A stretch of 64,000 nt of DNA, taken from the NCBI RefSeq assembly GCF_000010305.1, contig NC_012489.1:3851646-3915645 (forward strand), written 5' to 3'. Source of the stretch: Gemmatimonas aurantiaca T-27 (GTDB lineage: Bacteria > Gemmatimonadota > Gemmatimonadetes > Gemmatimonadales > Gemmatimonadaceae). The stretch's first letter is position 1; the number at the start of each line of letters is the position of its first letter. Both the position numbers and the translations under genes were made by a program. Under the pieces are notes generated by a model. The model was given only the letters and a program-made list of their open reading frames with translations. It did not search any database and had not been told where the DNA came from. This document shows, piece after piece, positions 18,389 to 21,160 of this stretch.

Positions 18389-19666
18389 TCAGAGCACCGC
18401 GGCTTCCGCGCTCACCGTGACGTTGCCGATCGTCACCGTGGCGTTGTTGGTCTTGATGAAGTTCAACTTGTTGGCGATCAGGGCGGCGTTCCAGATGGTG
18501 CCCGTCGTGGTGTCGGTGGAGCTGTCGTACAGCGCCCGATCGGCCCGCAGCGTGGAGCGCGTGGCGCAGTCGGCACCCTTGGCACCGGTGGCCCAGAAGA
18601 TCACCCGGATCGTGCCGGTGCTGGTGCTGCCGATGTCGAAGCAGATGGACGTGGCACCTGCCGTGTACAGCGCGGCACCGGCGTCGGTGGCGTAGTTGAA
18701 CTGCGTGGTGGTGCCGGTGGCGCCGAAGCGGAACCAGGTCCACGAGGCGCCTGACGCCGAGCGACCGCCAGTGATGATCAGCTTGCCCGCGCTGGCGGCC
18801 GGGTTGCCTGTCGGAGCGGCGTCCTGACCAAGCACGGCGTAGAAATAGCTGTTGTTGGCCGTAGCCTGGATGTTGTCGATGCGCACGTGGCGCGCCGCAC
18901 CCCCCGGTGCCGCGCAGAGCGGCTGCCAGTCGGTGTTGTTGGTCCAGGCCGCCGAACAGGCCGTGGCCGCTGTGATGGCCGACGCTTCGAGCACCGGCGT
19001 CGTGGACAGCGTGATCTTGGGCGTCGCACCCGAGCCCGCCGACTGGCGGAAGTAGTTCTTGAGCGTGGTGGCCACCGTACCGGTGGTGCCCTTCCAGTAG
19101 GCGCGCGCACCCATCGCCGTGGCCGCCGTCAGCGTGCTGCGCACACTGCAATTGGCGCCACGCTGGCCGCTCACCCAGATGACAAACTGCGGGGCCGTGG
19201 TGGCCGAACCGTCATGGATGTCGAAGCACACGGTCGCGCCGCTGTTAATGTAGCTGGCAGCCTCGTCGACGCTGGCATCCACGCTGCCCCAGGTCGCCTG
19301 CAGCACGGGCGCCGGTGCGGGTGTTCCACCGCCGTACAACAGCACGCGGAACTGCTGGGCACCAACGGCACCCGACGTGACCGTCGGCGTGCTGGCAAAC
19401 CCGAGCAGGAGCTGGGCCGACGCATGGGTGGCCGCGGCGCGGGCGTTCTCAATGCGGATATGGCGAACCGGCGCCGAGACGGCACAAAGCTCGACAAAGC
19501 TGTCGCCATTGGCGGCCGTGATGTCGGTGGTGCACTCGGTCTTCGGCTGATTGTCGACACCGGACGGCGTGTCATCGCCACAGGCGGTCAGCGCGGTGGC
19601 TGCCAGACAGGCAGCGATCAGGGTGCCGAGTCGGCGCGTGTGAGCGAGCGGGGAAGCGGGGATCAT
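18389..19666 (-). CDS. Lipoprotein with two tandem copies of an unknown domain
   Basis: A 425-residue exported lipoprotein: signal peptide with lipobox LTAC (Cys 29) followed by GDD. The mature part holds two copies of the same unit, about residues 45-215 and 237-408. Matching landmarks are C-x15-C at the start, RHIRIENARA against RHVRIDNIQA, VCFDIHDGSATT against ICFDIGSTSTG, and GQRGANCSVRSTL against GAKGADCATRSTL. Four conserved Cys per unit suggest disulphides. I do not recognise the family; a beta-sandwich carbohydrate- or ligand-binding role would be a guess. It is monocistronic, with its own terminator and an isolated upstream region. Confidence 0.75.
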   Translation of the reverse strand: MIPASPLAHTRRLGTLIAACLAATALTACGDDTPSGVDNQPKTECTTDITAANGDSFVELCAVSAPVRHIRIENARAAATHASAQLLLGFASTPTVTSGAVGAQQFRVLLYGGGTPAPAPVLQATWGSVDASVDEAASYINSGATVCFDIHDGSATTAPQFVIWVSGQRGANCSVRSTLTAATAMGARAYWKGTTGTVATTLKNYFRQSAGSGATPKITLSTTPVLEASAITAATACSAAWTNNTDWQPLCAAPGGAARHVRIDNIQATANNSYFYAVLGQDAAPTGNPAASAGKLIITGGRSASGASWTWFRFGATGTTTQFNYATDAGAALYTAGATSICFDIGSTSTGTIRVIFWATGAKGADCATRSTLRADRALYDSSTDTTTGTIWNAALIANKLNFIKTNNATVTIGNVTVSAEAAVL

Positions 19667-19739
19667 CTTCGCGGCGTTCCAGTTTACGGAAAATCCCCGT
19701 CACATCGGGTGGCGAGGGCCGAGCATCGGGAAGGTAGCA

Positions 19740-19773
19740 ATAATCCCGATTATCTATATCCCGTATAATACGG
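19740..19773. promoter_or_regulatory. Two perfect dyads around a TATAAT box
   Basis: ATAATC-CC-GATTAT (19740-19753) and CCGTAT-A-ATACGG (19761-19773) are perfect inverted repeats whose centres are about 20.5 bases apart, two DNA turns. The second contains TATAAT (19764-19769), a consensus -10 hexamer on the plus strand. The arrangement looks like a promoter with operator sites. It could serve the plus-strand RNA candidate, the lipoprotein on the minus strand, or both. Confidence 0.5.
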
Positions 19774-19775
19774 AG

Positions 19776-19831
19776 TTGCCGAGGGAGGGGGCCGGCTTCT
19801 ATGGCTGGCCCGGGGGAGCACCGGGTTTTTT
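19776..19831 (+). ncRNA. Candidate small RNA ending in an intrinsic terminator
   Basis: About 56 nucleotides downstream of the TATAAT box. A first hairpin pairs GGCCGGC (19790-19796) with GCTGGCC (19804-19810, one G-U). A second pairs CCCGG (19809-19813) with CCGGG (19821-19825) and is followed by six T (19826-19831), a textbook intrinsic terminator on the plus strand. No plus-strand gene lies upstream or downstream: both neighbours are on the minus strand. The two stems share two bases, so they may alternate. No known RNA family is recognised. Confidence 0.45.
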
Positions 19832-19879
19832 GTGGGCGGCGCCCCCCCCTGTGATCCCAATCCGGCTGGCCAGCGCCAA

Positions 19880-21160
19880 CTACTCCAGCCCACCCGCCTG
19901 CTGAATTTGCTGCATGGCCGGCTCGCTCACGAAGATCGGCGCATGAAACCGCCGGCCCCAGGACAGCGGCGTGACATCGCGATAGTCGTGGCGGGTGCTG
20001 TCTCCGTGTCCGGGATGCAGCCGCTTCCACAGGGACGCGCGCGCATTCGGATCGGCGCCATGCTCCAGCAGCAGCTCGGCGAACGGCGCCCGGAATGGAC
20101 CACGCTTCCCGTAGTTCATCCAGAAGTTCGGCTGTGACACCACCGTGTTGAACAGCGGCGTGTGGCCACCAAACCCGCTCGCCCCGAGGGCCGACCGTGC
20201 ATCGACCGGTGCGCCCTGCGCAATCAGCCAGCGCGCGATCTCGAGCTCGTCATAATCCACGCACAGATGCAGCAGGGTGGACCCGCCTAGCGGAGTACCC
20301 ACCGTTGCGTCGAGCGGGTCTCGGCATCCCATCGACAACGGATAGATCTCGCGATGCGTGAACGTGCGCGTGAGCAGCGAGGCATCCTGCGCGAGATGCT
20401 CTTCGAGCAGATCGATACGCCCGCGATGCAGCGCCATCACAGGCGTATCCGGAAAGGAAAGACCGTGCTGCGCATACATCTCGAGAATCGCGTGTTTTGC
20501 CTCGGGATGCCGCCCATCGGTCTCGAGCACGACCGCCACTGGCGCGAGTCGCTCTCCAGCATCATTCACCACACGCGCACCAAGACTCAGCAGCAGAGCC
20601 GTCCCCTCGGCGCTCAGGGTATACGCCGGGCCACCCAACGCGTCATCGTCAATGGGCGGGCGACCAGCCAGGTCATACAACATGCGCGCCGTCTCCACCT
20701 GCCCCTGCAACGCCGCGCGGCCGGCCGCACTGAACACATCGGTCGCACCGTGCGCGTGCAGCCAGCGAATGATGCGATCACGTCCGAGGTTGGCCGCATA
20801 AGTCATTGGCGGCCCCCAGTTGCTGTCTTGCCGGATCAACACCTGCTCATCGAGCAACGCGCGATTGGCTGTGATCAGCACGCGCACCGCATCGAAGTCA
20901 TCGCGCCAGATGGCATCGGCCAGTTCGACACTCTGCACGAGACGTGGCCAACTCGACGCCTGATAGCTTCGCGCGAGGACGAGCTGCGCATCAGCGAGCT
21001 TCACCTCGGATCGTTCATCCGCCGGACGTGCGGACGGATGATGTTGCTGCCATTCCGTGATGGCGTGTGAATCTCCGGCGCGATAGGCACGTAGCAGCTC
21101 CTTGGCCTGACGACGGAGCTGATCGAGATCGGGACGGACGGGCAATCGACGAACGGACAT
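19880..21160 (-). CDS. Ankyrin-repeat protein
   Basis: A 426-residue protein without signal peptide. Ankyrin-type helices recur from about residue 95 on (MTYAANLGRDRIIRWLHAHGA, then AARAALQGQVETARMLYDLAG-like, HLCVDYDELEIARWLIAQGAPVDAR, ELLLEHGADPNARA). The first 80 residues are helical (DLDQLRRQAKELLRAYRAGD). Such proteins mediate protein-protein contacts; the partner is not inferable. It ends only 48 bases from the T tract of the candidate small RNA. Start ATG 21160. The 212 bases upstream hold no gene that I can support. Confidence 0.85.
   Translation of the reverse strand: MSVRRLPVRPDLDQLRRQAKELLRAYRAGDSHAITEWQQHHPSARPADERSEVKLADAQLVLARSYQASSWPRLVQSVELADAIWRDDFDAVRVLITANRALLDEQVLIRQDSNWGPPMTYAANLGRDRIIRWLHAHGATDVFSAAGRAALQGQVETARMLYDLAGRPPIDDDALGGPAYTLSAEGTALLLSLGARVVNDAGERLAPVAVVLETDGRHPEAKHAILEMYAQHGLSFPDTPVMALHRGRIDLLEEHLAQDASLLTRTFTHREIYPLSMGCRDPLDATVGTPLGGSTLLHLCVDYDELEIARWLIAQGAPVDARSALGASGFGGHTPLFNTVVSQPNFWMNYGKRGPFRAPFAELLLEHGADPNARASLWKRLHPGHGDSTRHDYRDVTPLSWGRRFHAPIFVSEPAMQQIQQAGGLE

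Follow-up and report, generated by a model that had tools for sequence, protein, structure and literature searches.

A conserved block upstream of a lipoprotein gene of Gemmatimonas aurantiaca T-27: a probable promoter/operator region and a candidate small RNA on the other strand

The ankyrin-repeat/lipoprotein locus

The genome of Gemmatimonas aurantiaca T-27 is a single contig of 4,636,964 bases, of which positions 3851646-3915645 (64,000 nucleotides, hereafter the window) were analyzed. A 213-bp gap in the window separates an ankyrin-repeat protein gene from a lipoprotein gene (Table 1). For this gap, a first-pass annotation had proposed a complete 56-base small RNA unit on the plus strand, with a promoter embedded in an operator. 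The elements that it described were all found at 19740-19831, and both flanking genes do lie on the minus strand.

Table 1. Features of the intergenic region and its flanking genes (positions within the window)
Feature	Positions	Strand	Description
Lipoprotein gene	18389-19666	-	425 aa; two similar halves; no Pfam family; conserved block in upstream region
Intergenic region	19667-19879		213-bp gap between the ankyrin-repeat and lipoprotein genes, both on the minus strand
Conserved block	19726-19782	-	57 bp; matched in G008 upstream of its lipoprotein ortholog; putative promoter/operator
TACCTT	19731-19736	-	Putative alternative -10 of the lipoprotein gene; aligned with TAAGTT in G008
Dyad ATAAT-CCCG-ATTAT	19740-19753		5-bp arms; first of two (A/T)4-CCCG-(A/T)4 boxes, 15 bp apart
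Perfect dyad CCGTATAATACGG	19761-19773		6+1+6; contains TATAAT
TATAAT	19764-19769	+	-10-like; inside dyad CCGTATAATACGG
TATTAT	19765-19770	-	-10-like; -11A/-7T base pairs common to the plus-strand TATAAT
Proposed small RNA hairpin	19789-19811	+	9 pairs, loop of 5
Weak terminator-like stem	19809-19831	+	CCCGG/CCGGG followed by T6; -10.9 kcal/mol
Larger hairpin	19812-19848	-	12 pairs; 31 nt downstream of the ankyrin stop codon; A6/T6 in the loop
Ankyrin-repeat protein gene	19880-21160	-	3' end toward the proposed small RNA; upstream of the lipoprotein gene

The two halves of the lipoprotein contain conserved cysteines. Its structure was predicted with low confidence (pLDDT 61), and only weak matches, to beta-sandwich folds, were obtained. 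The distribution of the protein is very patchy, as it was found in 2 of the 288 genomes of the order. A distant homolog in Myxococcales is divergent from a TonB-dependent-receptor-like open reading frame, and a Fur-box-like sequence, TTGACAATCATTTTCATTAAG, lies between the two (L053:2820-2850); judging from this neighbourhood, a link between the family and iron uptake is possible. The DNA upstream of the Myxococcales gene, read by eye, is unlike that of the present locus. A Fur box was considered for the dyads of G. aurantiaca and rejected: counted by hand, no more than 11 of the 19 positions match, and the spacing is wrong.

The second dyad that had been noted upstream of the TATAAT dyad is indeed present, with the two centres 20.5 bp apart. 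Background rates were obtained from 864 kb of the genome, in which genes were called with a simple gene caller of our own. TATAAT occurs twice in this sample, both strands taken together. This hexamer and most other hexamers composed only of A and T are strongly depleted, which suggests selection against chance promoters. Four (A/T)4-CGGG-(A/T)4 sites were counted in the 864 kb, and two of them are the pair described here, 15 bp apart. AT-rich 32-mers of this kind number 18 in the same sample, 15 of them outside called genes; in tandem gene arrangements, five of eight such stretches lie nearer to the start of the downstream gene, so not all are near starts. At zero or one mismatch, neither dyad has a further copy in the genome, and a regulon search with the paired boxes and with each dyad returned no further convincing copies.

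Conservation of the intergenic region

A single close ortholog of the lipoprotein (67% identity) was found in the 288 genomes of the order; it is encoded in the genome G008. No further ortholog that could serve for covariation was found in the 30 genomes of the genus, the 148 of the family or the 288 of the order, and conservation is therefore judged from a single comparison, that of one ortholog pair. A 57-bp block upstream of the gene aligns with the region upstream of the ortholog with a local alignment score of 40.0, which none of 2000 shuffles reached. This score was also the highest among 312 upstream regions, of which the next reached 30.5. The block is thus retained in sequence, orientation and gene association, and the rest of the intergenic region is not: no match to G008 was obtained for the leader part (p 0.39) or for the hairpin/terminator part (p 0.30), and the plus strand of the G008 region contains no run of at least four T. 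A G008 hairpin with the arms GGGCCGAC and GTCGGCCC, located near the same place, was considered as a conserved stem and rejected, its alignment not being above chance (p 0.30).

In G008, the gene upstream of the lipoprotein gene is a membrane-protein-like open reading frame rather than an ankyrin-repeat gene, and the block is still there. Because it is kept while the upstream neighbour changes, it may be concluded that the block belongs to the lipoprotein gene. Within it, the window has its two CCCG-centred boxes at a distance of 15 bp, and G008 has CCCC and CCCG with equal spacing. Of the dyads themselves, only part is retained. The -11A/-7T base pairs are retained on both strands (AATAAT/AATTAT in G008).

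The first-pass annotation had named conserved copies and stem pairing in relatives as a check on the small RNA. Neither was detected: DNA searches of the 30 genus genomes gave chance-level matches only and the hairpin alignment was that described above. The operator-embedded promoter fared better than the RNA attached to it: the block carrying both dyads is kept in G008, and the small RNA itself is unsupported.

Plus-strand promoter and hairpins

Upstream of the proposed plus-strand promoter, the -10 element of which is exact, no -35 hexamer is present. Promoters of this genome that are recognisable by TTGAC have the form TTGAC, a gap of 17-20 bases and TAnnnT, a form imposed by the search pattern itself, and all 11 of them point at a gene. 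The proposed plus-strand promoter lacks TTGAC and points toward no gene; it may depend on an activator. Its start site is an assumption, and no start-site map for the species or for the phylum Gemmatimonadota was found in the literature.

The two stems of the proposed RNA had been reported to share two bases; in the computed folds, they share three (19809-19811). At -10.9 kcal/mol, the terminator-like stem is weak in comparison with most gene-end terminators here (about -18 to -40 kcal/mol). Counting this one, seven intergenic T6 sites have a stem of at least this strength. Five of them follow a gene end and have energies of -18 to -33; neither of the two weakest, of which the present site is one, comes after a gene. 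Sites of equal strength inside genes number five, and the density of such T6 hairpins is approximately 15 times higher outside genes than within them. The folding of the 56-nt RNA is no better than expected from composition (z -0.34; folding as good in 71 of 200 shuffles). The bigger stem has the T6/A6 tract in its loop, both on the minus strand and in a longer transcript.

Of about 309 real intergenic regions, 3 contain a -10 element that matches at five or more of six positions and is followed by a hairpin/T-run unit, versus 0.35 in shuffles; this figure is descriptive only, because the site was chosen before the test. With an exact TATAAT, there was one such unit in the real set and none in 20 shuffled intergenic sets. 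Other orphan hairpin and T-run sites between genes are located at G000:C1:3738112 and 3608506, both on the plus strand, and TACAAT lies upstream of the latter.

Interpretation of the locus

The conserved block is probably the cis-regulatory promoter/operator region of the lipoprotein gene, in which case any 56-nt plus-strand RNA would be a by-product. RNA polymerase would use TATTAT as the -10 element, with a start near 19758, or TACCTT, with a start near 19724. Transcription of the lipoprotein gene would then proceed without a good -35 element, and a regulator that binds the pair of CCCG-centred boxes could either help or block it. Because the -10 element is nearly symmetric, some polymerase might also fire on the plus strand, where the hairpins and the weak T6 terminator that lie at the ankyrin 3' end would keep the RNA short. 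Such an RNA would not be a conserved regulator. Points against this reading are that the block lacks the TTGAC -35 element seen at other promoters of the genome, that its dyads are retained only in part in G008 and that not every AT-rich stretch of this kind is near a gene start; in addition, the exact TATAAT with a terminator exceeds chance and could mean a true plus-strand unit.

The symmetry of TATAAT and TATTAT fits known bidirectional promoters, and a short plus-strand RNA is therefore plausible as a by-product. In bidirectional bacterial promoters with a symmetric -10 element, described by Warman, Grainger and colleagues, the divergent starts are 7-25 bp apart, typically 18, and reciprocal -11A/-7T base pairs are present on both strands (PMC10268837, PMC12825309). 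These pairs are shared by the two elements here and by AATAAT/AATTAT in G008, so that the predicted start sites are 18 bp apart. Unlike in those promoters, the thymine at -18 (PMC10268837, PMC12825309) is not at the exact position here, the arrangement is predicted from sequence geometry, and the usual -35 element of the organism is missing.

If the hairpins instead formed the 3' end of the minus-strand ankyrin mRNA, as an end-of-transcript or RNA-stabilising structure, T6 would be a mere hairpin loop. GC-rich stems lie 31 nt and 68 nt downstream of the stop codon, the 12-pair stem with A6/T6 in its loop reaches -25.3 kcal/mol in a 40-nt window, and hairpins in this genome are stronger at gene 3' ends (median -27.7 in convergent versus -17.1 in divergent regions). 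However, the minus strand has no T-run, the ankyrin orthologs show no conservation in their 3' flanks, and composition alone gives similar folds in 39 of 200 shuffles; this explanation is considered unlikely. It is quite improbable that a functional, species-specific, trans-acting small RNA is encoded on the plus strand at about 19776-19831 under a regulator bound at the dyads. The rarity of the exact TATAAT, its combination with a terminator once in the real set and never in shuffled sets, and the excess of such T6 hairpins outside genes speak for it, whereas the missing -35 element, a fold equal to that of shuffles, the lack of a homolog in the genus, the absence of the terminator from G008 and an Rfam search of the region that matched no known RNA family speak against it.

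Small RNAs encoded between genes, each with a promoter and an intrinsic terminator of its own, have been predicted in Sinorhizobium meliloti (PMC2573895). The present site resembles them in having an orphan -10 element and an orphan hairpin/T-run between genes of the other strand; unlike them, it is a candidate with an unconserved body, a weak terminator and no -35 element. A symmetric operator-promoter firing both ways, from which the lipoprotein mRNA and a regulator-controlled 56-nt RNA would arise, with the overlapping stems switching between release and termination, is very improbable. A chance assembly, in which a functionless AT-rich stretch lies beside GC-rich sequence that folds anyway, would account for folding scores equal to those of shuffles and for dyads that are not repeated elsewhere, but the conservation of the 57-bp block with the lipoprotein gene makes it highly improbable.

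With the block read as the promoter/operator of the lipoprotein gene, the locus illustrates that what looks like a convincing small RNA in a GC-rich genome can be the promoter of a gene viewed from the opposite strand. Should the promoter be used both ways, the locus would be an example, from the phylum Gemmatimonadota, of bidirectional promoter symmetry.
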